Source: Alphaproteobacteria bacterium
Lineage (GTDB): Bacteria > Pseudomonadota > Alphaproteobacteria > JANQMY01
Reading direction: 5' to 3'
DNA length: 64,000 nt
Assembly (NCBI GenBank): GCA_028289425.1
Contig: JANQPL010000001.1
Span: forward strand, 1 to 64,000
Shown here: positions 2,637 through 33,663 of the stretch, one piece after another
How the letters are laid out: the number at the start of each line of letters is the position of its first letter
Numbering within the stretch: the stretch's first letter is position 1
The notes under the pieces: model-generated
Databases searched by the model: none
What the model was told of the DNA's origin: nothing
The model's input: the letters and a program-made list of their open reading frames with translations, nothing else
Made by a program: the position numbers and the translations under genes

Positions 2637-3134
2637 TTAGGCCGTTTGTGCATCGGCCAACAAATCCGCCAAAGTGCCTCGCGCCCGCGACAGCCGGCTC
2701 ATGACCGTTCCGATGGGAATGCCCAACATTTCCGCCGCCTCTTTGTAAGAATACCCTTCGACGGCAACCAGAGAGACCACAACCCGCTGGTCGTCCGGCA
2801 GTGCCGCCATGGACTGATTGACCTGTTCGAACATAATCCGGTCCATCACGCCTCGCTCTCCGTCCGTCGCGGCGGCCTCGGGCGCGTCGTCGATTGGCGT
2901 GGCGGCCCGCACTTTCCGAGAACGAACTTCATCGATCCAAATGTTCTTGCACACGCGAAACATCCATTTGGCCAAAATAACCTCTTGTGGCGGCGGTTTC
3001 TCCAACAGGCGCTTGACGGTTGCCTGCATCAGATCGTCGGCGTCGTGCCAGGTGCCCGTCAAAGAGAAGCAGAACCGTCTGAGACGCGGGAGCAGCTCCA
3101 ACAGCTCATCTTCATCACCCCTACCTTCGGTCAT
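2637..3134 (-). CDS. ECF-type RNA polymerase sigma factor
   Basis: 165 aa, the usual ECF length. Sigma region 2 lies at about 14-77 (DADDLMQATVKRL, then WMFRVCKNIWIDEVRSRK). Region 4 lies at about 108-158, with the helix-turn-helix YSYKEAAEMLGIPIGTVMSRLSRAR. It sits upstream of its anti-sigma gene and is divergent from the acidic-repeat subtilase. A GGAATAA...CGTT promoter upstream suggests autoregulation. That promoter's -10 ends only 10 bases before the ATG, so the transcript would be nearly leaderless unless another promoter exists. Confidence 0.93.
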   Translation of the reverse strand: MTEGRGDEDELLELLPRLRRFCFSLTGTWHDADDLMQATVKRLLEKPPPQEVILAKWMFRVCKNIWIDEVRSRKVRAATPIDDAPEAAATDGERGVMDRIMFEQVNQSMAALPDDQRVVVSLVAVEGYSYKEAAEMLGIPIGTVMSRLSRARGTLADLLADAQTA

Positions 3135-3144
3135 CTGTACACCT

Positions 3145-3170
3145 AACGTTCATGGCCGCTTGTTTATTCC
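3145..3170 (-). promoter_or_regulatory. Putative ECF promoter of the sigma/anti-sigma operon
   Basis: On the minus strand GGAAT (3170-3166, within the heptamer GGAATAA) is followed by a 17-base spacer and CGTT (3148-3145). The layout resembles alphaproteobacterial ECF promoters such as EcfG-type GGAAC-N16/17-CGTT. The same pattern recurs in front of neighbouring genes of this cluster. Confidence 0.55.
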
Positions 3171-3191: not shown

Positions 3192-3216
3192 GGAATAATT
3201 CTGATGCTGAGACGTT
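3192..3216 (+). promoter_or_regulatory. Putative ECF promoter of the acidic-repeat subtilase
   Basis: GGAAT (3192-3196, again GGAATAA) is separated by 16 bases from CGTT (3213-3216). It reads toward the subtilase ATG at 3289, giving a leader of about 65 bases. Together with the oppositely oriented copy at 3145-3170 it makes a symmetric divergent control region. Confidence 0.55.
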
Positions 3217-3288: not shown

Positions 3289-4902
3289 ATGACACGATTT
3301 ACGCTGGCCATAGCGGCGACGATGCTCGCCGTGCTGCTGCTCCTGGGGGTTGAAAACACGCCGCCCTATTCCATCACAGCCGCCTATGCCCAAGACGATC
3401 CCGACGACGATCTGGATGACGACATCGACGACGATATCGAAGACGACATCGAGAGCGACGTGGAAGACGATATCGAAGATGATGTGGAGAGCGATATCGA
3501 GGACAATATCGAGTCCGACATTGAAAGCGATATTGAGTCCGACATCGAAGGCGACATCGAATCGGACATTGAGAGCGACATCGAGGACGATATTGAAGGG
3601 GACATCGAAGGGGATATCGAAGGCGACATAGAAGACGACGTCGAGGATGATGTGGAAGACGATGTCGAAGACGATGTTGAGGACGATGTTGAGGATGACG
3701 TCGAAGACGAAGCGGAAGAAGAAGCAGAGAGCGAACTGGACGACGATCTGGAAGAGCTAGAAGCATCCCAAAAGTCGTCGGAAGCCTTTGAGACGCGGGC
3801 GGCACAAGCGGCGCGGGATACGGTCGACCTAGCCTCCGACGACCAAAACCAAGAAGTGATCGCCAACGAACAGATCCTGCTGCTTGACCCGGACACGGTT
3901 TCCGTACTGAGCGAGCGTGGGTATCGCATCATCGAGCAAGAAGAGTTGGCCGGCTTGGGCCAGGTACTGGTGCGGATCGAAACAGCCGACACTTTCGATC
4001 TTGAACAAGAGATCACGGCCCTCACCGCGAGCGGCCCGCAGAATGAAATCGACTTCAACCATGTTTACCGGGCCCAACAATCGACCGCGCGGCTTGATGC
4101 CCGCGGCTACTCCCCATCGGCCTTTGCCCAAGACAATTCGGCCTGGCAACGCACCCGGCGGAACACCCGCGCCAGGATCGGCTTGATCGACACCATGATT
4201 GATGACCGGCATCCCGCCCTTGATCGCAGCCGTATCGAAACGCGCGATTTTGTCGGCGGGGCGCGGCCGCAAGAACATGGGACAGCGATTGCTTCCATCC
4301 TGGTGGGCGCTGGCGCCGGGTATCAGGGCCTGCTGCCCAATGCGCGCCTCATGGCCGCTTCGGTCTTTATCGACCATTCGAACGCAGGCGACATTGCGCC
4401 CACCGATCTTTTGGTGCGTGCGGTCGACTGGATGGTGTCGAGCCGCGTGGGCGTGGTCAATATGAGCATTGCAGGGCCGCCGAACCGGGTGCTGGCGGCG
4501 GCTTTGGCACAGGCATCGGATCTGGGCATTGCGTTTCTTGCCGCTGCCGGCAATAACGGGCCCAATGCGCGGCCCGCTTATCCCGCAGCCTATGAGACGG
4601 TTGCGGCGATTACGGCCGTCGACACGGACAATCGCGTCTACCGACGCGCGGGGCGGGGGCCCCACATCGATTTCGCTGCTCCCGGCGTCGATATTCTCTG
4701 TGCTGATCTTTCGGGTAGCTTTACCACCGATTCAGGCACCTCCATGGCCGTGCCGTTTGCGGCGGCCGTCTTTCTCAGCCAATGTTCTGGATCTTATTGC
4801 GGGAACGTGCCCCGGATTATGTCCGATCTGGGGCGCCGGTCGATTGACTTAGGCGCAAGCGGCGTCGATCCGGTCTATGGCTACGGCCTGATCCAACCGT
4901 AA
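3289..4902 (+). CDS. Secreted S8 (subtilisin-like) serine peptidase with acidic tetrad-repeat N-terminus
   Basis: 537 aa. The signal peptide covers 1-34 (cleavage after AYA). Residues 36-155 are a four-residue acidic repeat, Asp/Glu with Ile or Val at every fourth position, about 27 units. Residues 190-265 look like an inhibitor-type propeptide. The catalytic domain has Asp301 (GLIDTMID), His330 (QEHGTAIAS), oxyanion Asn422 (AAAGNNG) and Ser485 (SGTSMAVPF), so it should be active. The peptidase part is short but complete. The repeat resembles the stand-alone acidic protein at 6.2-6.7 kb. A divergent ECF sigma and a shared promoter pattern suggest envelope-stress control. The substrate is unknown. 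Confidence 0.88.
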   Translation: MTRFTLAIAATMLAVLLLLGVENTPPYSITAAYAQDDPDDDLDDDIDDDIEDDIESDVEDDIEDDVESDIEDNIESDIESDIESDIEGDIESDIESDIEDDIEGDIEGDIEGDIEDDVEDDVEDDVEDDVEDDVEDDVEDEAEEEAESELDDDLEELEASQKSSEAFETRAAQAARDTVDLASDDQNQEVIANEQILLLDPDTVSVLSERGYRIIEQEELAGLGQVLVRIETADTFDLEQEITALTASGPQNEIDFNHVYRAQQSTARLDARGYSPSAFAQDNSAWQRTRRNTRARIGLIDTMIDDRHPALDRSRIETRDFVGGARPQEHGTAIASILVGAGAGYQGLLPNARLMAASVFIDHSNAGDIAPTDLLVRAVDWMVSSRVGVVNMSIAGPPNRVLAAALAQASDLGIAFLAAAGNNGPNARPAYPAAYETVAAITAVDTDNRVYRRAGRGPHIDFAAPGVDILCADLSGSFTTDSGTSMAVPFAAAVFLSQCSGSYCGNVPRIMSDLGRRSIDLGASGVDPVYGYGLIQP

Positions 4903-5094: not shown

Positions 5095-6063
5095 TTATAG
5101 TTCGGCCCCAATCCGGAACGTCGCCACGCTTTGCGTGAAGTCCACCGACGGCAGGTTCGAATTGAAAATGTCGTAATTGTATTCAATCTCAGCGTAGAAA
5201 ATGTCGTTGAGCGGGATCTCGAGCGATGCTTCCAGCTTGTGCCGTGTATCGTCCCGGACCACGCCGATGGAGGGTGTTACGGAATCGTAGTTGCGGTTTT
5301 CATACCGCCATCCGGCGCGAAACTTCGCCCTGCGGTCCCCCAGCGGGAAACGTTGGACGACCCTGGCCTTTAGATTATTGGCAGTGAAGTCAAATTCCGC
5401 GCCCACCGCATCCTCGGATTCGAATTTGTAACCGAAGATCAAATACGTCGTTAGTCCGTTGACGAAGTAAAAGACGTCCGCATTGAACGCATTTACATCC
5501 GCATCGCGGTCAGCCACGCCGATGAAGTCTTTGTCCGTATAGATGTACGATCCGCGCACATAGAACGTCTTGTCGGCAAGATATGTGGACGCGAAGGGCG
5601 ACAGCCGATGAAGCGTGAGGAATCCGTCGCCGCCAAGACGTGAGTGAATAAGCTGGTACGAGACACCGATATCCACATCGCCGAAATCATGGGCAACTTC
5701 GATGGAGCCCCGATGGGTCTGAGTGTTAAAGTCCGTGAAGTCGAACTGGATGTCCTGACCGAGATCATAGCCGATTTCCACGGTGGTATTCTCGGCAATG
5801 TCCGTTTCAAAACCGACCCCCAAATCGAACAGGGCTGCGAAGTCGCCTTCCGCCGTGGACGTGTCCACTTCGACAACAGACACGTTGCTGTCATATTCGA
5901 TGCCGGTGCTGAGCTCGATCGAAAACGGGCTTTCCTTCACCCGTTCGATCCAGCTTGTGTCGTCATCGTCGTCCCGATAGCCGTCCTGAGCAACCGCGCC
6001 GGAGATAATCAGCGCCGGCGCGAGAAGCCCAGCAGCCACCAAATGTAACGATTTCTTTTTCAT
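5095..6063 (-). CDS. Outer-membrane beta-barrel protein
   Basis: 322 aa from ATG 6063, which has a GAGGGA ribosome site; an upstream TTG start is less likely. The signal peptide ends near SGAVAQ, and the mature protein begins with a run of five Asp. The rest is alternating amphipathic beta strands rich in Tyr/Phe and Asp (for example STGIEYDSNVSVV, GYDLGQDIQFDF), ending in FRIGAEL, typical of outer-membrane barrels of about 12-16 strands. No exact family is recognised. It is convergent with the subtilase and downstream of the acidic protein, inside the putative ECF regulon. Confidence 0.75.
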   Translation of the reverse strand: MKKKSLHLVAAGLLAPALIISGAVAQDGYRDDDDDTSWIERVKESPFSIELSTGIEYDSNVSVVEVDTSTAEGDFAALFDLGVGFETDIAENTTVEIGYDLGQDIQFDFTDFNTQTHRGSIEVAHDFGDVDIGVSYQLIHSRLGGDGFLTLHRLSPFASTYLADKTFYVRGSYIYTDKDFIGVADRDADVNAFNADVFYFVNGLTTYLIFGYKFESEDAVGAEFDFTANNLKARVVQRFPLGDRRAKFRAGWRYENRNYDSVTPSIGVVRDDTRHKLEASLEIPLNDIFYAEIEYNYDIFNSNLPSVDFTQSVATFRIGAEL

Positions 6064-6247: not shown

Positions 6248-6730
6248 CTAGTCGTCCCCTCTATCGTCATCGACATCTTCTTCAACGTCGTCGTCGATTT
6301 CGTCGTCCACCTCGTCCTCGACGTCGTCGTCGATTTCATCTTCTAACTCGTCGTCGACGGCATCATCGATTTCGTCCTCCAATTCATCGTCGACCTCATC
6401 TTCGATATCGTCATCGACTTCCTCGTCCACGTCGTCGTCAATGTCGTCATCGACGTCATCGTCAATTTCATCATCGATATCGTCCTCGACATCGTCGTCT
6501 AAGGCCTCATCCGCCTCATCGTCCGCATCGTCATCAATCTCGTCGTCGACATCGTCGCGAACGTCATCCACGCCTTCGTCGAATTGGGCCAGGATCACCT
6601 GCGGCGATGGATTAACCACCGCCAAACCCTTGCCGACCGCCGGTAAAGCCGCTGCCGGCGTGGCATGCACGCTCCACCCAAGCGAAAGGGAAAGAGCGAT
6701 AACGGAACTGTATGTGCTGTGTTTCAGCAT
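6248..6730 (-). CDS. Secreted poly-acidic tetrad-repeat protein
   Basis: 160 aa from ATG 6730 (GAAAGGAC ribosome site). A signal peptide covers about 1-29 (ends near ATPAAA). After a short linker, residues about 52-160 are nearly continuous acidic tetrads, Asp/Glu with a Val/Ile/Leu/Ala every fourth residue, and no Cys, Trp or aromatic residue. Nothing catalytic is visible. The composition predicts a highly charged, perhaps Ca2+-binding or disordered surface protein. It shares its design with the N-terminus of the subtilase 1.3 kb away, so the two may interact or bind the same partner. No known family is recognised. Confidence 0.75.
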   Translation of the reverse strand: MLKHSTYSSVIALSLSLGWSVHATPAAALPAVGKGLAVVNPSPQVILAQFDEGVDDVRDDVDDEIDDDADDEADEALDDDVEDDIDDEIDDDVDDDIDDDVDEEVDDDIEDEVDDELEDEIDDAVDDELEDEIDDDVEDEVDDEIDDDVEEDVDDDRGDD

Positions 6731-6821: not shown

Positions 6822-6846
6822 GACGTCACATCGATCGCGCGCTTCC
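6822..6846 (-). promoter_or_regulatory. Possible ECF promoter of the acidic protein
   Basis: Minus strand: GGAAG (6846-6842), a 16-base spacer, CGTC (6825-6822). It overlaps the end of the response-regulator gene and lies about 90 bases upstream of the acidic-protein ATG. It fits the cluster pattern except for the fifth -35 base. Confidence 0.35.
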
Positions 6847-7530
6847 TTCTTCTTTTGCCAAGATTTTGTACCCACGCCCGCGGATCGTTTTCAGATAACT
6901 CTCCTTCTGATCCGCATCGATCTTCTTACGGAGCTTGCCGATATACACGTCGACGATGTTTGTCAGCGGGTCGGCATTGGTACCCCACACATTGCTCAAA
7001 ATACGTTCGCGGCTAAACACTTTCCCCGGGGACCGCATGAGCAGTTCCAATATGGCCAGTTCTTTAGCCGTCAAATCGATCAATTCATCCGCCCGATGAA
7101 AATCGAGCGTTTCCAGGTTGAGGGAAAGGTCGCCGACTTCGATGATCTTCTGCACATGTTCGAAACGCCGGTTGCGTCTCAGCTGCGCATCGATACGGGC
7201 GAGCAATTCGTCGAACGCAAACGGTTTTGGAAGATAGTCGTCCGCCCCAAGACGAAGCCCTTCGATGCGGTCTTCAAGCGTGTGCATCGCGGTTAACATG
7301 ATAATCGGTGTGAGGACGCCTGCCTTTCTCAGCTCTTGGCACACATCCAGCCCATGCATGCCGGGCAGCATCAAATCAAGAATGATCAGGTCATAATTGA
7401 CCTGGAGAGCAAGATCATGGCCGTCTTGCCCGTTTTCCGCATGGTCCACGCCGTACCCTTCGGCCCGAAGTCCGCGAAGCAGAAAATCGGCGACACGCGT
7501 ATCGTCTTCCACCACCAGCAACGACATCAT
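6826..7530 (-). CDS. OmpR/PhoB-family response regulator
   Basis: 234 aa. The receiver domain (about 3-115) has the acidic pair Asp9/Asp10, the phospho-acceptor Asp52 (IILDLMLPG), Thr80 and Lys102 (YLPKPF). The C-terminal winged helix (about 135-228) ends with the family block YLKTIRGRGYKI. The partner is probably the histidine kinase upstream, although 231 bp separate them. That gap contains a GGAATAA...CGTC promoter, so the regulator can be made independently of the kinase, apparently under the ECF sigma. Confidence 0.92.
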   Translation of the reverse strand: MMSLLVVEDDTRVADFLLRGLRAEGYGVDHAENGQDGHDLALQVNYDLIILDLMLPGMHGLDVCQELRKAGVLTPIIMLTAMHTLEDRIEGLRLGADDYLPKPFAFDELLARIDAQLRRNRRFEHVQKIIEVGDLSLNLETLDFHRADELIDLTAKELAILELLMRSPGKVFSRERILSNVWGTNADPLTNIVDVYIGKLRKKIDADQKESYLKTIRGRGYKILAKEEGSARSM

Positions 7531-7701: not shown

Positions 7702-7727
7702 GACGGTTTTGCCTCCAGGTTTATTCC
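7702..7727 (-). promoter_or_regulatory. Putative ECF promoter of the response regulator
   Basis: Minus strand: GGAAT (7727-7723, within GGAATAA), a 17-base spacer, CGTC (7705-7702). It lies in the 231-bp gap between the kinase stop and the regulator start. It is the third exact GGAATAA in this cluster with the same spacing. Confidence 0.5.
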
Positions 7728-7761: not shown

Positions 7762-9414
7762 TCAAGCGACTGACTGCAGTTCTCCCTCCCGTGGCAAGAC
7801 GATGGTCACTGTGGCGCCTTCGCCAAGCGTGCTGTCGATGTCGATCTGTCCGTTATGAGCATCGACGATCGCCTTCGCGACAGGCAGGCCGAGCCCCATG
7901 CCCTCCTTGTTCTGCGACGCATTGTTGCCGCGGTAGTAACGCTCAAAAACATGGGCCAACTCTTCCTTCGCGATGCCGATGCCGCCGTCATTAACCGTAA
8001 CGACCACGCCGCGCGGACCGGGCGCGGAACGAATGGTCACCGTGCCGCACTCTGACGAATAGCGAACCGCATTGTCGATGACGACCGAAAACACCTGCCG
8101 CAAACGCCTTCGATCGCCAAGGACGACCAAGTGATCCTCGGCAAGGTTGGTCTGCAACGTAATCTGACGCTGTCCGGCAAAGGCCTTGAAATCCTCTGCC
8201 ACGTTTTGAAGCAGCTCATTGATGGCAACCGGCGTTGCATCCAATCTTGGTTGTCCCGCATTGGCCCGGGCCATAAACAACAGATCGTCGACCAATCGCG
8301 AGGTATGGTCCGCTTGATCGACAATGCGCCTAAGGCACGCTTGATAGTCACCACTTGTCTTGTCACCACCGCGCAGGGTGATCTCGGCTTCGCCGCGGAT
8401 AACCGTCAGCGGCGTGCGCAATTCATGGCTGATATCGGCAAAAAACCGGCGGCGCAGCCGATCCGCATCCGCGAGGGTCTGGTTGGCGGCTTCCAGCTCT
8501 TGTGTACGCTCGTTGACGATCCGCTCCAGCGAATTGTTCGTGTCGATCAAGTGTTGCCGATTGCGGCTCAGTTCTTCTGCCATTTGATTGAACGCGTGCC
8601 CAAGTCGATCGAGTTCGGGATCATCCAATTGGGGAAGCCGATGCTCCATCTCGCCACGTGTGAGCGACGCCGCCCCTTCCGACAACTGAGCAAACGCCCG
8701 GTTGATGCCGCGCGATAGGAAGGTGAGCATCAACAATATGATCGGCAGAGATAGCGCCGCATTGGCCGTGGCAAGTAACTCCAGAAAAATCGACATATTC
8801 TGGGCTTGCGCGTCTGTGCGCTGCACTTCGCCGCGCTCATCGGCCAGAATATCCGCCAAATAAAACATGAACTCGCGATCAAACCGCGAAGCAATCGCGT
8901 CCAGCCGACGCATGACCTCCGGATTTTCAAGCGTGGCGGATTCTTGTTTTAGAGTCTCAAAGTCTTCTAGAAACTTCTCCAACCCCGCTTCGATCTTAAT
9001 CAGCCTCAGACTTTCTTCAGCTTCTTCCGCCTTTTCTTGCGGATCATTGGCGACAAAGGCGATTTCTTCCGCCGTCAGATTGTGCAGCTTGTTCACATCG
9101 ATGCGGATCGCCGCGACCAATTCTTCGTTGAGCGTTTGGTCCCCCGACCGGTCCGACAGCGTGTCCTGATACAGGTTGCGTAATAGCCAATTGGATTTCT
9201 TGGCGATGGATACGTAAAGCTGCAGTTGTTCATGCGCCAGTCGACTGCGCTCAAGATAGTAGATCGACCGTTCCGATCCGAAATACGACACCGATGCACC
9301 GATCAGTATGATGATGATCATGAAGAGAAAAGCGATCATCAATCGCGTTCTGAATCCGATACGTCGAAATAGGTCAGTACCATCGGGCAAAATGCGCATT
9401 GTTTTGCTCGTCAA
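7762..9414 (-). CDS. HAMP-domain sensor histidine kinase
   Basis: 550 aa. A first membrane segment (about 23-45) and a second (about 213-235) enclose a helical periplasmic sensor of about 165 residues. HAMP and coiled coil follow (about 236-320). The dimerisation domain carries the phospho-acceptor His330 (FFADISHELRTPLT), and the ATPase domain has DNAVRYS, DGGIGI and GMGLGLPV motifs, all intact. The gene starts 2 bp after the ABC-exporter stop, so exporter and kinase are co-transcribed. The response regulator follows after 231 bp. The signal is unknown. Confidence 0.92.
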   Translation of the reverse strand: MTSKTMRILPDGTDLFRRIGFRTRLMIAFLFMIIIILIGASVSYFGSERSIYYLERSRLAHEQLQLYVSIAKKSNWLLRNLYQDTLSDRSGDQTLNEELVAAIRIDVNKLHNLTAEEIAFVANDPQEKAEEAEESLRLIKIEAGLEKFLEDFETLKQESATLENPEVMRRLDAIASRFDREFMFYLADILADERGEVQRTDAQAQNMSIFLELLATANAALSLPIILLMLTFLSRGINRAFAQLSEGAASLTRGEMEHRLPQLDDPELDRLGHAFNQMAEELSRNRQHLIDTNNSLERIVNERTQELEAANQTLADADRLRRRFFADISHELRTPLTVIRGEAEITLRGGDKTSGDYQACLRRIVDQADHTSRLVDDLLFMARANAGQPRLDATPVAINELLQNVAEDFKAFAGQRQITLQTNLAEDHLVVLGDRRRLRQVFSVVIDNAVRYSSECGTVTIRSAPGPRGVVVTVNDGGIGIAKEELAHVFERYYRGNNASQNKEGMGLGLPVAKAIVDAHNGQIDIDSTLGEGATVTIVLPREGELQSVA

Positions 9415-9416
9415 CG

Positions 9417-11111
9417 TTAGATGTCCGCAACCGCACGAAGGTGTGTCGATTCGTTAACTGAAGACGGATTGGAGGCGGATTTTATTTCAATAGTGCCGTC
9501 AGTTAGGTCCCACAGCTGATCGGCCATGGTTAATATGGCGAGAGATTTGGTGGCGATCAGGGTGGTCTGGCGCCGCTGGGCAAGCAAATCCAGCAGGGTG
9601 CGAAAACCGGCTTCGTCCAACCCCAGATCCGGCTCATCCAGCAACAAAAGGCGTGGGGTCCCGGCAACGGCCCGCGCAAGTTGAACACGTGCGCGCCACC
9701 CCGCCGAAAGCTCGCCGCCCCCTTCCGAAATCCGTGTGTCCAGGCCGGCCGGCAGGAGATTCAACAGCTCCGAGAGCCCGCACACGGCAATTATGTCGTC
9801 CAAAGCGTCTTCGGACAGGCGTGGCCTCCGATAGGTGATGTTTCGGCGAAGTGTCCCGCGCAGCAACGGGATTTCGGCGGAACAAACGCCGATGGCTTGC
9901 CGCAGATGCTTTTGTTTTGTTTCGAAAAAGTTCGATCCGTCGAGGGAGATGCCGCCACCATCCACATCAATGAGTCCGGCGGCCGCCAGCAGCAGAGTGG
10001 TTTTGCCCGACCCGTTGGCCCCGGTGATCGCCACCAATTCTTTTGGGCGCACGTCGGCACTGAACTGATGCAAGACGGGATCGATCCGGGCATCGGTAAA
10101 TTGAAGCCGTCCGTTTCCCTTGGCCAACGCAGCCCCTTTCCGCGGTCCGGATTTCAACTGTCGGATGGCCAAAAGATTGCCGATCTTTTCCCGAGCAACG
10201 GAAAAATTTCGCCAGCGGTCGAACACCGAAGCGAGTTCTTTTAGCGGCGTAACAAGCAGGCTGAGCGTGGTGAGGATGGCAATCACCGCTCCAGGGGTAG
10301 CCGTCCCGCGAGCGATTTCGGCCGCACCCATGATGATAATGACGGCAAGCGCGAACGAAGCGGCAAAGTCCGGAATGCCCACTACCATGGTGGAATGGCG
10401 GCGACGGCGCACGCTGGCGTCGATCACATCGCGCGATCGTGCCGCAAGCCGGCGTTGTTCGCGGCGGGCCTGACCAAAGGCATCGACGACCGTGGCACTT
10501 GTCAGCTTTTCGCCAAGCTCGCCAGCCATTTTGCCTTTGTTTTCTCTGGCCGTCGCATGGCGGGCGCGAAGGGAATGGCGGGCGACAAATATCGCCACGA
10601 AGCTGCACATCAACATGGCCGCAACGACCGCCACGATCTTCGCGTGGATCGTCATCAACACCGCGGTCACGATCGGCAATACGATCGCGGCAACCGTGAT
10701 CTTCGAGACACCATTGGCGATCCAACCGCGGACAGCGCCCAAATCGCCGACAAACCGCACCATAAGGTGGCCGCGGCGCTTCCGGCGAATCGCTCTGTAA
10801 TCGGCATTGACCACCCTGCGGAAAATGCGCTGCCGTAATTGCGCGATGTAGTCTTGAGCCATCGCCTCGGCTGCGCCGCGCTCCACAATGCGCAACCCAT
10901 AGATGGCAGCTCCCGCAAGTGCAAAACCAACGCCCGCCAGAACCGCTTCGGTCAGAGGGACAGGGCCTTCGCTGCGAAGCAGACTGTCAAACGTGTGCCT
11001 GATGAGGAGAGCCGTGGCGCCCGCCGCGATGGCTTGCCCCAGACCGCACGCGACAACGACGGCGAAGTGTTGGCGGCGACCTGGGGCAAAGAGCGGGGGC
11101 CAACCGCTCAT
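9417..11111 (-). CDS. ABC exporter (fused TM and ATPase) with degenerate ATPase motifs
   Basis: 564 aa. The N-terminal half has five to six membrane helices (about 15-280) like type-IV ABC exporters; the ATPase half starts near 335. Walker A is intact (GANGSGKTT, 364-372), as is Walker B with its glutamate (LLLLDEPD). The signature is LSAGW instead of LSGGQ, the Q-loop glutamine is missing (CSAE at 410-413), and the H-loop histidine is replaced by Thr521 (IATKS). It may hydrolyse ATP poorly or work with a partner. It overlaps the upstream P-loop gene by 4 bp and adjoins the kinase, suggesting a transporter-sensor module. Confidence 0.85.
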   Translation of the reverse strand: MSGWPPLFAPGRRQHFAVVVACGLGQAIAAGATALLIRHTFDSLLRSEGPVPLTEAVLAGVGFALAGAAIYGLRIVERGAAEAMAQDYIAQLRQRIFRRVVNADYRAIRRKRRGHLMVRFVGDLGAVRGWIANGVSKITVAAIVLPIVTAVLMTIHAKIVAVVAAMLMCSFVAIFVARHSLRARHATARENKGKMAGELGEKLTSATVVDAFGQARREQRRLAARSRDVIDASVRRRRHSTMVVGIPDFAASFALAVIIIMGAAEIARGTATPGAVIAILTTLSLLVTPLKELASVFDRWRNFSVAREKIGNLLAIRQLKSGPRKGAALAKGNGRLQFTDARIDPVLHQFSADVRPKELVAITGANGSGKTTLLLAAAGLIDVDGGGISLDGSNFFETKQKHLRQAIGVCSAEIPLLRGTLRRNITYRRPRLSEDALDDIIAVCGLSELLNLLPAGLDTRISEGGGELSAGWRARVQLARAVAGTPRLLLLDEPDLGLDEAGFRTLLDLLAQRRQTTLIATKSLAILTMADQLWDLTDGTIEIKSASNPSSVNESTHLRAVADI

Positions 11112-12193
11112 GCTGCGATAGGTTGTTCAGGCGGCAGAATCTCGCCCCTATTGACGGGTACCATTTCATGCGCTTCCAACAGTGGCGCGAGAGTTTCCGG
11201 TTGCAGTAGGTCTTGCCGGGTCAGCACCGGCACACTTGTCTGCGAGGCAACTTCGCGGCATCCAAGCGGCGACGCAGAGATCTTGCCACTCACTCCGAAC
11301 ACGTTGAGGCCCGCGTGCATCAACACCTGAACACCAGCGATTGTTCCAAGCGCGTCCGCGCCGGCGAACAAAGCTGCATCCACCAATTCGTGGAATGAAA
11401 CATTGCGCACCAAATCACCCGTTTCGTTCTGAAGCACGCCATCAGCAATTTCGAGAACGTAGGCATCGGCGCCCGCGGCGCTAAGGTGGGAAACAAGGAC
11501 TGAAACAATGTGCAGCAGTTCCCGGCTGCTGAGACCGACCGTGGTTGCATAGCCCACATCCGTGAAGTCCAGGACTTCGACCGCGCCAGCATCCGCCATT
11601 TTGAAGTAGTCGCCGAAAGCACCCGTACCGGTGACCTTGGCCGCACCCACTTTGAAGCCGCATTTGGTCAACCCATGCACGAGAGACGCAGCGGTGGTCG
11701 TCTTCCCGGCATTCATGGACGAGCCGAACACTGCAAAGACCGGTCCTTGCGCCCGAATGCTGCTCGCCGGTAGGCCGAATTGGCCGATATTGATGACATC
11801 CCCGCCACGGTCGGCGAGAAGGCCATGCACCTTAAGGCGTGTGGGCTCCTTCATGGAAGAATGGGCATTGACGATCGTACCGGCAACACCACCGGCTGCA
11901 ACGAGATCGCAAAAGCCATCCACGATTGTCGGCACACTTTCGAACTGATCGGGTGCGTAGCGCGCGCCCACGCACAGCGCCAGATTGTCGCCCTGATAGA
12001 TTTCGGCGCGCCGGCCAGCGGCCAATTGAACACCCGTATGCTGGCCGATGGACAGGACTTCCGCGCACAAAAGATCGCCGGGCCGGGCCTGTGAGAAGTC
12101 GCTGATCAGATGAGATGGGTCATTGTGAGACACTCTTCGTGTCGTGAAGGCCCATTTCATTTGCGGTATGTTTGTTCGGTTAAGTCCCGACAT
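11108..12193 (-). CDS. P-loop NTPase-domain protein (DUF1611/MobB-like)
   Basis: 361 aa. A P-loop (GSSMNAGKTTTAASL, about 157-171) is followed by KVGAAKVTGTGAFGD and ADAYVLEIADGVLQ, a layout shared by DUF1611-type and MobB-like nucleotide-binding proteins. The first 140 residues form a separate domain with no recognised motif. No signal peptide is visible, so it is cytoplasmic. It is the first gene of the operon leading into the ABC exporter (4-bp overlap) and the histidine kinase. Its reaction is unknown, and the family assignment is tentative. Confidence 0.6.
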   Translation of the reverse strand: MSGLNRTNIPQMKWAFTTRRVSHNDPSHLISDFSQARPGDLLCAEVLSIGQHTGVQLAAGRRAEIYQGDNLALCVGARYAPDQFESVPTIVDGFCDLVAAGGVAGTIVNAHSSMKEPTRLKVHGLLADRGGDVINIGQFGLPASSIRAQGPVFAVFGSSMNAGKTTTAASLVHGLTKCGFKVGAAKVTGTGAFGDYFKMADAGAVEVLDFTDVGYATTVGLSSRELLHIVSVLVSHLSAAGADAYVLEIADGVLQNETGDLVRNVSFHELVDAALFAGADALGTIAGVQVLMHAGLNVFGVSGKISASPLGCREVASQTSVPVLTRQDLLQPETLAPLLEAHEMVPVNRGEILPPEQPIAA

Positions 12194-32191: not shown

Positions 32192-32257
32192 AACGTTTAC
32201 CGAAAAGCTCCGGAGGCGTATACTCTTCCTCGATTGGCCGCCTGGCTGATCCCATAG

Positions 32258-32335
32258 ACCTGCAAGCGACTGGCGAGAAACGTGGGGCCTACCACAAGGA
32301 AGCTTGCAGTTTGAATTGGCCGCTCGCCTGGGCAC
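32258..32335 (+). ncRNA. ZTP (pfl-motif) riboswitch aptamer upstream of glyA
   Basis: An 8-base stem, CTGCAAGC (32260-32267) with GCTTGCAG (32302-32309), encloses GACTGGCGAGAAACG and TACCACAAGGAA, the pfl-motif core. The 3' conserved segment CGCCTGGGCA follows at 32325-32334. This matches the ZTP riboswitch consensus, and glyA is a known target of ZTP riboswitches because ZTP reports low one-carbon folate. It ends about 63 bp before the glyA ATG. Confidence 0.85.
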
Positions 32336-32390
32336 CGTAAGGATTTGCTCAGGCGGTTGTGTTTACAACTCTTGCTGATTGGCAAAGGAG
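32325..32390 (+). promoter_or_regulatory. Expression platform of the ZTP riboswitch
   Basis: The conserved CGCCTGGGCA (32325-32334) can pair with TGCTCAGGCG (32346-32355), apart from one G-U, which would break the aptamer. Two small hairpins follow, GTTGT/ACAAC (32356-32369) and TTGC/GCAA (32372-32385), the latter next to the AAAGGAG ribosome site (32384-32390). No T-run is present, so translational control is more likely than termination. Confidence 0.55.
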
Positions 32391-32397
32391 CGGCCCC

Positions 32398-33663
32398 ATG
32401 ACCAATTATCGCGACATTCTTAAATCGACGGATCCGGACGTGTTTGCAAACCTGTGCGGAGAAGAGGACCGGCAACGGGACGGTCTGGAATTGATTCCGT
32501 CCGAAAACTACACCTACCCGGAAGTGCTGGCACTGCTGGGGTCCGTTTTCACCAACAAGTACTCGGAAGGCTATCCCGGCCGCCGTTACTATGGCGGACA
32601 GGAATTCACCGACGCCGTCGAACGCTTGGCTCGTGAGCGGGCCTGCAAAGTGTTTCGCGCCGAACACGCCAATGTGCAGCCCCTTTCCGGGTCGCCCATG
32701 AATCAAGCGGTTTATTTGGGGGTGGTGGACCCAGGGGACACGATCCTCGCCATGGATTTATCCCATGGCGGCCACCTCACCCACGGGTCCCCGGTATCCC
32801 ACATGGGGAAGCTATTCAATTTTGTGCGTTACAAAACCACGCACAATCAAGGTGCGATTGACATGGACGAAATTCGGCGCCTTGCGAAAGAACACAATCC
32901 CAAGCTGGTCTTGTGCGGGTACACGTCCTATCCCCGTGATATCGACTATGCGCCCTTCAAAGAAGTCGCCGATGAAGTCGGCGCCCTGACCATGGCAGAC
33001 GTAAGCCATGTGGGCGGTCTGATTGCCGGCGGCGCGCTGGAAAACCCGATGGATGCGGGTTTCGATATCATGACCACCACCACCCACAAATCGTTGCGCG
33101 GCCCACGCGGCGGCATGATCTTGTGTAAAAAGAAGTACGCCAAAAAACTCGATGCATCCGTCTTTCCGGGACTGCAAGGCGGACCGCACATGAATGCGGT
33201 TGCAGCAATTGCCGTGACACTCAAGCTCGCCGATACGGTTGAGTTCAGGGACTATGCACAACAGGTCCTCCAAAACGCCACAGCGTTGGCCAATACGCTG
33301 ATCGCCCATGGCGCCCATCTCGTGACCGGCGGGACGAGCAATCACATGATTGTCATAAACACCAAGACATGGCTCGACATGGACGGACGGCAGGCAGAAG
33401 AAATGCTCGATCGGGTGCTCCTCACCACAAACAAACAGATTACGCCTGACGATCCCCTGCCGCCCCTTCGCCCCAGCGGCATCCGCTTGGGTACGCCGGC
33501 GGTGACCACCCGCGGCATGAAAGAAGAACATATGGTGGAAGTGGGAACGATTATGGCCGAAGCACTCCAAAGCGGTGGTGACGAAACAAAACTGTCCGCC
33601 TTGAGGTCTAAGGTGAAACAAATGACAGAGCAGTTTCCTGTCCCGGGACTTGAGCCCCGCTAA
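32398..33663 (+). CDS. glyA: Serine hydroxymethyltransferase
   Basis: 421 aa from ATG 32398, seven bases after AAAGGAG. It converts serine and tetrahydrofolate to glycine and 5,10-methylene-THF, a PLP enzyme of fold type I. The PLP lysine is Lys231 in TTTTHKSLRGPRGG; the usual block has Thr where Ser232 stands. The substrate region LIPSENYTYPEVLALLGSVF and the GGPHMN block are intact. It is controlled by the ZTP riboswitch directly upstream. No other folate gene is adjacent; PhoX follows. Confidence 0.96.
   Translation: MTNYRDILKSTDPDVFANLCGEEDRQRDGLELIPSENYTYPEVLALLGSVFTNKYSEGYPGRRYYGGQEFTDAVERLARERACKVFRAEHANVQPLSGSPMNQAVYLGVVDPGDTILAMDLSHGGHLTHGSPVSHMGKLFNFVRYKTTHNQGAIDMDEIRRLAKEHNPKLVLCGYTSYPRDIDYAPFKEVADEVGALTMADVSHVGGLIAGGALENPMDAGFDIMTTTTHKSLRGPRGGMILCKKKYAKKLDASVFPGLQGGPHMNAVAAIAVTLKLADTVEFRDYAQQVLQNATALANTLIAHGAHLVTGGTSNHMIVINTKTWLDMDGRQAEEMLDRVLLTTNKQITPDDPLPPLRPSGIRLGTPAVTTRGMKEEHMVEVGTIMAEALQSGGDETKLSALRSKVKQMTEQFPVPGLEPR

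Follow-up and report, generated by a model that had tools for sequence, protein, structure and literature searches.

The window analysed here, a stretch of 64,000 nucleotides of alphaproteobacterial DNA, contains a locus in which a secreted subtilisin-type protease carries, between its signal peptide and its propeptide, an old array of acidic four-residue units that is preserved at the level of the protein while its DNA has been randomised. Judging from the gene neighbourhood, the locus is a variant, not described before, of the ECF26-linked S8 protease module already known, to which are added a second secreted tetrad-repeat protein (hereafter the companion) and a 14-strand outer-membrane barrel. 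The anatomy of the locus, comprising the array, its codon randomisation, the domain order of the protease, the promoters, the companion and the barrel, is firmly established by computation.

Anatomy of the acidic tetrad array

The protease gene (3289-4902, + strand) encodes a protein of 537 aa, which matches the S8 family (PF00082, E=1e-23) and has the expected Asp/His/Ser triad and oxyanion Asn, the catalytic residues Asp301, His330, Asn422 and Ser485 being invariant in 11 homologues. Its signal peptide spans approximately residues 1-35 and ends in ...AYAQ (3289-3393, + strand). The earlier note had placed a repeat of four residues (12 bases) at 3391-3753; these coordinates are correct, corresponding to residues 35-155 of the reading frame 3289-4902(+), and the repeat is real, consisting of 29 in-register tetrads at 3403-3750 (+ strand) with no break in the register. 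The units follow the pattern [E/D][D/S/G][D]-[I/V/L/A], in which the fourth residue is always hydrophobic or Ala. Across the 29 units position 1 is dominated by glutamate (E 25, D 4) and position 3 by aspartate (D 25, E 3, N 1), with a more mixed position 2 (D 16, S 8, G 4, E 1) and I 16, V 8, L 3 and A 2 at position 4. Lys and Arg are absent from residues 36-155, giving this segment a net charge of -77. Tandem Repeats Finder reports periods of 12, 24 and 36 with 67-80% matches, and the tandem repetition of the array far exceeds chance.

Synonymous codons and the age of the array

Mixed synonymous codons, already remarked upon in the earlier note, were confirmed throughout the array (GAC 28/GAT 17, GAA 18/GAG 11, ATC 11/ATT 4/ATA 1). 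As many as 28 of the 29 12-mers are distinct at the DNA level, although they code for just 11 distinct protein units, and this count lies within the expectation under random synonymous choice (mean 27.1, range 23-29). Taking neighbouring host genes as the codon reference, the usage in the array is host-like both for Asp (GAC/GAT 0.62/0.38 vs 0.56/0.44) and for Glu (GAA/GAG 0.62/0.38 vs 0.60/0.40). When synonymous codons were permuted within residue and position as a control, the shuffled mean of inter-unit codon identity was about 0.50, as against observed values of 0.44, 0.45 and 0.52 at lags of 1, 2 and 3 units; since none of the three lags stands out above the shuffled arrays, no trace of slippage is left. 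Host-like codons, together with neighbours that are no more alike than shuffled ones, indicate an old array that has been maintained at the protein level. A further line of evidence comes from the acidic residues themselves: codons for Asp and Glu are a single third-base transversion apart, and the two residues are nevertheless sorted by tetrad position, with E at position 1 and D at position 3 (Fisher p = 6e-9). As third-base transitions in the array are at equilibrium, this position-specific retention of D and E argues for selection on the protein. The proposal that the array is older and maintained by protein selection is thus borne out by the randomised codons, the position-specific D/E and the occurrence of such arrays in at least 10 loci. 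That the array is a young, unselected expansion by recent DNA slippage, as its tandem nature and the recent copies seen in other lineages (L010, L100, L127) might suggest, is very improbable and is rejected for the window, given that its synonymous codons are fully randomised, that 28/29 units are distinct, as random choice would have it, where near-identical DNA units would mark a recent microsatellite, and that neighbouring units resemble each other, if anything, less than they would at random.

Homologues and variation in unit number

A family search recovered ten loci (L003-L012), nine of which possess acidic tetrads, while L012 contains a distant S8 relative only. The acidic-tetrad loci derive from alpha- and gammaproteobacterial assemblies, Asticcacaulis among them, and have 12 to 39 contiguous units across the nine comparison loci as against 29 in the window. 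A comparison within the genus is afforded by the relative L003 (identical in sequence to the locus of genome G001), whose array has 26 contiguous units and begins with a block, QDDPDDDLDDDIDDDIEDD, identical to that of the window. The two arrays align with a single clean gap of 8 residues (two units) inside the array. Identity between the two proteins is 76% in the array region, 66% in the catalytic domain, 52% in the propeptide and 26% in the signal peptide. The earlier note had regarded wildly varying unit numbers or identical tandem DNA units in related strains as pointers to recent slippage. In the relatives the length of the array does vary, and recent tandem DNA copies do occur: a 24-bp periodicity is present in L010 and L100, the companion of L106 has near-identical 12-bp units, and the Gly/Asn-rich spacer of the L127 protease has identical 15-bp units. 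None are traceable in the protease array of the window.

Viewed more widely, the protease family is present in 35 of 385 genomes of the class, mostly with spacers other than tetrads, namely poly-Asp, Gly-Asp, Gly/Asn and Pro-rich ones. The tetrad DNA pattern was detected in 3 of 399 genomes of the phylum, all three of which carry the barrel; two of these had entered the search beforehand, namely the window's own genome and G723, whose contig corresponds to the L011 one, so that independent support comes from the third, G625, in which a tetrad protease and a barrel lie together with the genes for the sigma and anti-sigma factors.

Deficit of identical codons in adjacent units

To extend the codon comparison we pooled 15 arrays, comprising the two in the window (3403-3750 and 6272-6559), those of L003-L011 and their companions. 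Between one unit and the next, identical synonymous codons occur 396 times, as against 478.5 in shuffled arrays (z=-6.3, a value that is indicative only, the 15 arrays not all being phylogenetically independent). The deviation is negative in 14/15 arrays and is seen at all four unit positions, with no deficit at other codon distances in the pooled arrays and none at distance four in 142 ordinary control genes. A recent history of 24-bp blocks accounts for the depletion at lag 1 in the companion of L003, but is rejected as the sole cause, since the pool shows no excess at lag 2 (502 vs 506). It looks as though selection disfavours DNA units that are identical to their neighbours, or as though unstable identical neighbours have been lost.

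Domain order and predicted maturation of the protease

Structure prediction with AlphaFold2 from ten sequences delineated a subtilisin-type propeptide domain at residues 181-262 (3829-4074, + strand) with the β-α-β-β-α-β topology and a pLDDT of mostly 87-96. The best PDB fold matches are unautoprocessed pro-subtilisins, and the protease shares with pro-subtilisins such as subtilisin E and Tk-subtilisin the order of propeptide and S8 domain, the catalytic residues and the overall fold, differing from them in the acidic tetrads, a segment of 120 residues, that precede its propeptide. In S8 subtilases the propeptide typically takes up its fold against the catalytic domain and is removed by autocatalysis. 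Because the array is situated on the N-terminal side of the propeptide, self-cleavage should detach both from the enzyme, and by analogy with these proteases release of the array through autoprocessing is likely. A literature search for acidic tetrads or acidic arms preceding the propeptide in subtilases yielded nothing relevant.

The array itself is predicted to be mostly coil, with a pLDDT of approximately 50 in the same ten-sequence model. The suggestion of a charged helix or a Ca2+-binding rod accordingly finds no support. Charged single α-helices need regular E/K or E/R salt bridges, and a helix of this kind is excluded by the absence of Lys/Arg together with the predicted coil. Likewise, neither the array nor the companion has a Pfam match to a known family of Ca2+-binding repeats. 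RTX repeats are GGxGxDxUx nonapeptides; they resemble the array in being Asp-rich secreted repeats, but the array is devoid of glycine-rich nonapeptides and has a period of 4 rather than 9, and, with no family match, RTX or another known Ca2+ repeat was ruled out. The ten-sequence model is compatible with an array that may fold upon Ca2+ or on a partner.

An ECF26-type sigma factor and its predicted promoters

Divergently transcribed from the protease is a gene for an ECF26-like sigma factor (2637-3134, - strand; Sigma70_r2 and Sigma70_r4_2), with 45% identity to RpoE6 of Sinorhizobium meliloti, and beside it lies a gene for an anti-sigma factor (1839-2621, - strand), which matches zf-HC2 and anti-sigma models weakly and is conserved next to the ECF gene. 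The interval between the sigma factor and the protease contains two divergent GGAATAA-N14/15-CGTT sites, which recur in both directions in most of the related loci. One, GGAATAA-N14-CGTT at 3192-3216 (+ strand), is the predicted promoter of the protease and is found in the same place in related loci; the other, at 3145-3170 (- strand), would serve the sigma/anti-sigma operon. A third predicted ECF26-type promoter (7702-7727, - strand) precedes an operon of a response regulator, the companion and the barrel, an arrangement also seen in L003, while in L004, L007 and L011 such a site lies directly before the companion gene. Genome-wide the pattern GGAATA...CGTY has 8 matches, three of them in the window locus, whereas a reversed control gives 3. 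The published consensus is GGAATA/GT (PMC6180224). From the similarity to RpoE6, the promoter type and the gene order the sigma factor of the window is probably a member of ECF26, and the locus displays the features of an ECF26-S8 module, with an ECF gene beside an anti-sigma gene, a divergent S8 protease and a GGAATA/CGT promoter.

The best counterpart is the RpoE6-EcfR6-SMa0142 module of S. meliloti, with the same gene order and GGAATA...CGTT promoters, its products being 45% (sigma), 28% (anti-sigma) and 37% (protease) identical to those of the window. These homologues are located on pSymA (L140), where the published RpoE6-dependent SMa0142 promoter lies upstream of the protease homologue. 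Overexpression of RpoE6 strongly raises SMa0142, and another of its foremost targets is SMa0146 (PMC6180224). Adjoining ecfR6 on pSymA is a reading frame (L140:7291-7770(+)), taken to be SMa0146, whose product is secreted and consists of strict NSSS tetrapeptide repeats; a low-complexity secreted protein controlled by the module's sigma factor would be common to both modules. SMa0142 differs in having a short Asp/Gly-rich spacer without tetrads, and neither the barrel family nor an acidic companion was found near it.

Several further genes surround the module. The first gene behind the third promoter encodes an OmpR-type response regulator (6826-7530, - strand; Response_reg, Trans_reg_C), and a sensor histidine kinase (7762-9414, - strand; HisKA, HATPase_c, HAMP), 64% identical in L003, is kept beside it within the genus. 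Beyond these are an ABC exporter with fused membrane and ATPase domains (9417-11111, - strand; ABC_membrane, ABC_tran), relatives of which were detected in L003, L008, L009, L010, L102, L103 and L116, and a weakly MobB-like P-loop NTPase (11108-12193, - strand) with no Pfam family at E 0.001. Both recur near ECF26-protease loci, and in seven of these (L006, L008, L009, L102, L103, L116, L139) the NTPase lies behind an ECF26-type promoter; no such promoter was seen before it in the window or in L003. On the other side of the module a molybdopterin oxidoreductase with a sulfite-oxidase-like domain (145-945, - strand) adjoins a TetR regulator (920-1552, - strand). ECF26 sigma factors elsewhere control sulfite oxidase; a link of this module to sulfite oxidation through the oxidoreductase was discarded, its gene being in none of the ten loci L003-L012. 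Elsewhere in the window a ZMP/ZTP riboswitch (32256-32340, + strand) stands ahead of a serine hydroxymethyltransferase gene (32359-33663).

The companion and the outer-membrane barrel

The companion (6248-6730, - strand) is a secreted protein of 160 aa built from an acidic tetrad array that resembles the one in the protease, with 24 units at 6272-6559 and a net charge of -74. Companions with arrays were also detected in L003, L004, L005, L007 and L011. Directly downstream is the gene for the barrel (5095-6063, - strand), which AlphaFold2 predicts as an outer-membrane β-barrel of 14 strands with a mean pLDDT of 83. Matches of the barrel family to known families are weak (BBP2_2 9/9, SlipAM 4/9). 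In strand count and fold it is akin to the 14-strand porins CymA and OmpG (match E=8e-12), but identity to the CymA/OmpG, BBP2_2 and SlipAM barrels is about 14%, and the window barrel may be a porin or may assist surface export. The barrel family is rare, occurring in 2 of 385 genomes of the class and 6 of 399 of the phylum.

Two loci of one genus, L098 and L099, which come from another class in the same phylum and are hence probably gammaproteobacterial, are instructive with regard to the companion. In both, a gene for a secreted protein lies before a barrel of the same family and behind an ECF26-type promoter. These companions (L099:6923-7681(+), with Val/Ile/Leu at 24/26 fourth positions, and L098:9020-10018(-), with mostly Val/Leu/Ala at 26/29) show a strict xxxV period of four with Ser/Thr/Asn/Ala in between, and are not acidic; their proteases are without an array despite the presence of companion and barrel. 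As the period is kept here without the acidity, the conserved feature of the companion is the four-residue period and not the charge.

We also considered whether the companion might simply duplicate part of the protease N-terminus, and rejected this as a general account, the two signal peptides being alike in L106 and not in the window. Protease spacer and companion match in three unrelated styles, namely acidic tetrads, Gly-Gly-Asp-Glu (L106) and Gly/Asn-rich (L125, L127). When each style is represented by a single locus, no other of the 720 pairings of spacers with companions reaches the summed composition similarity of the true one, though the six styles compared are few, S. meliloti shows no such match and some of the companions were picked as low-complexity neighbours, which favours a match. 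The matched styles are therefore a lead and not proof.

Several other secreted proteins of these loci are worth recording. The Gly-Gly-Asp-Glu style is common to a secreted neighbour and the protease spacer of L106 (L106:11301-11837(+) and 7846-9516(-)). Gly/Asn-rich secreted neighbours matching the spacer occur at L125:8475-9224(-) and L127:7174-8223(-), with an ECF26-type promoter directly upstream. Secreted proteins with Gly-rich tails, FecR-like by eye, adjoin the protease behind ECF26-type promoters in the same two loci (L125:9370-10377(-), L127:3693-5075(-)). An Arg-Gly/Asp repeat protein lies behind an ECF26-type promoter at L117:4261-5972(-), and after it comes another secreted protein, perhaps a barrel, that has an insert of low complexity; the two resemble a companion and its barrel, though their sequences are different.

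Functional implications

These observations suggest, quite possibly though tentatively, that the array is an arm under ECF26 control, released together with the propeptide, which with the companion provides multivalent docking at the outer membrane. The array would have arisen long ago by tandem duplication, and selection would since have kept the protein pattern (a hydrophobic residue at every fourth position, E first and D third) while the DNA was randomised. As it stands it would be a disordered polyanionic segment between the signal peptide and the propeptide of the ECF26-controlled S8 protease, from whose active form self-cleavage would detach both array and propeptide. The same sigma factor would drive the companion, with its like repeat, and the 14-strand barrel. 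In this reading the two arrays would bring zymogen and companion together at the outer membrane by way of cations or of cationic ligands, perhaps with a part for the barrel, and maturation of the protease would free the enzyme from this assembly. Both arrays are strongly negative, and their mutual repulsion in the absence of a bridging cation would count against docking. Moreover, the module can exist without matched arrays: the proteases of L098 and L099 are array-less, and the NSSS protein of S. meliloti is unlike the protease spacer there.

Somewhat less probable is that any low-complexity N-terminal segment would suffice as a hydrophilic spacer, promoting solubility or export or holding the zymogen off the membrane, with the tetrads as one neutral solution. 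The variety of spacers among the relatives (poly-Asp, Gly-Asp, Gly/Asn, Pro-rich or very short) and the predicted disorder of the array are in keeping with such a role. However, 29 units in unbroken register with position-specific D/E exceed the needs of composition, the tetrad pattern is common to alpha- and gammaproteobacterial assemblies, and the co-regulated companion has a matching array. We think it unlikely that the arrays act as a polyanionic sponge binding Ca2+ or cationic (antimicrobial) peptides, with the protease degrading captured peptides and the sigma factor sensing damage. The net charges of both arrays (-77 and -74) and regulation through an ECF sigma factor, joined locally by a two-component system, would agree with this, whereas the L098/L099 companions beside the same barrel keep the period without the acidity, and RpoE6 has no known stimulus (PMC6180224). 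A variant of the docking scheme, an ECF26-controlled envelope system not described before in which period-4 chains on the protease arm and the companion assemble at the barrel, the protease cuts itself free and neighbouring DNA units are selected to differ, is likewise doubtful.

Concrete, testable hypotheses follow from the likeness of the two arrays, from the placing of the protease array before the propeptide and from the repeated pairing of companion and barrel. The arrays also represent a clean natural case in which a repetitive protein is preserved while the DNA repeats encoding it have been diversified.
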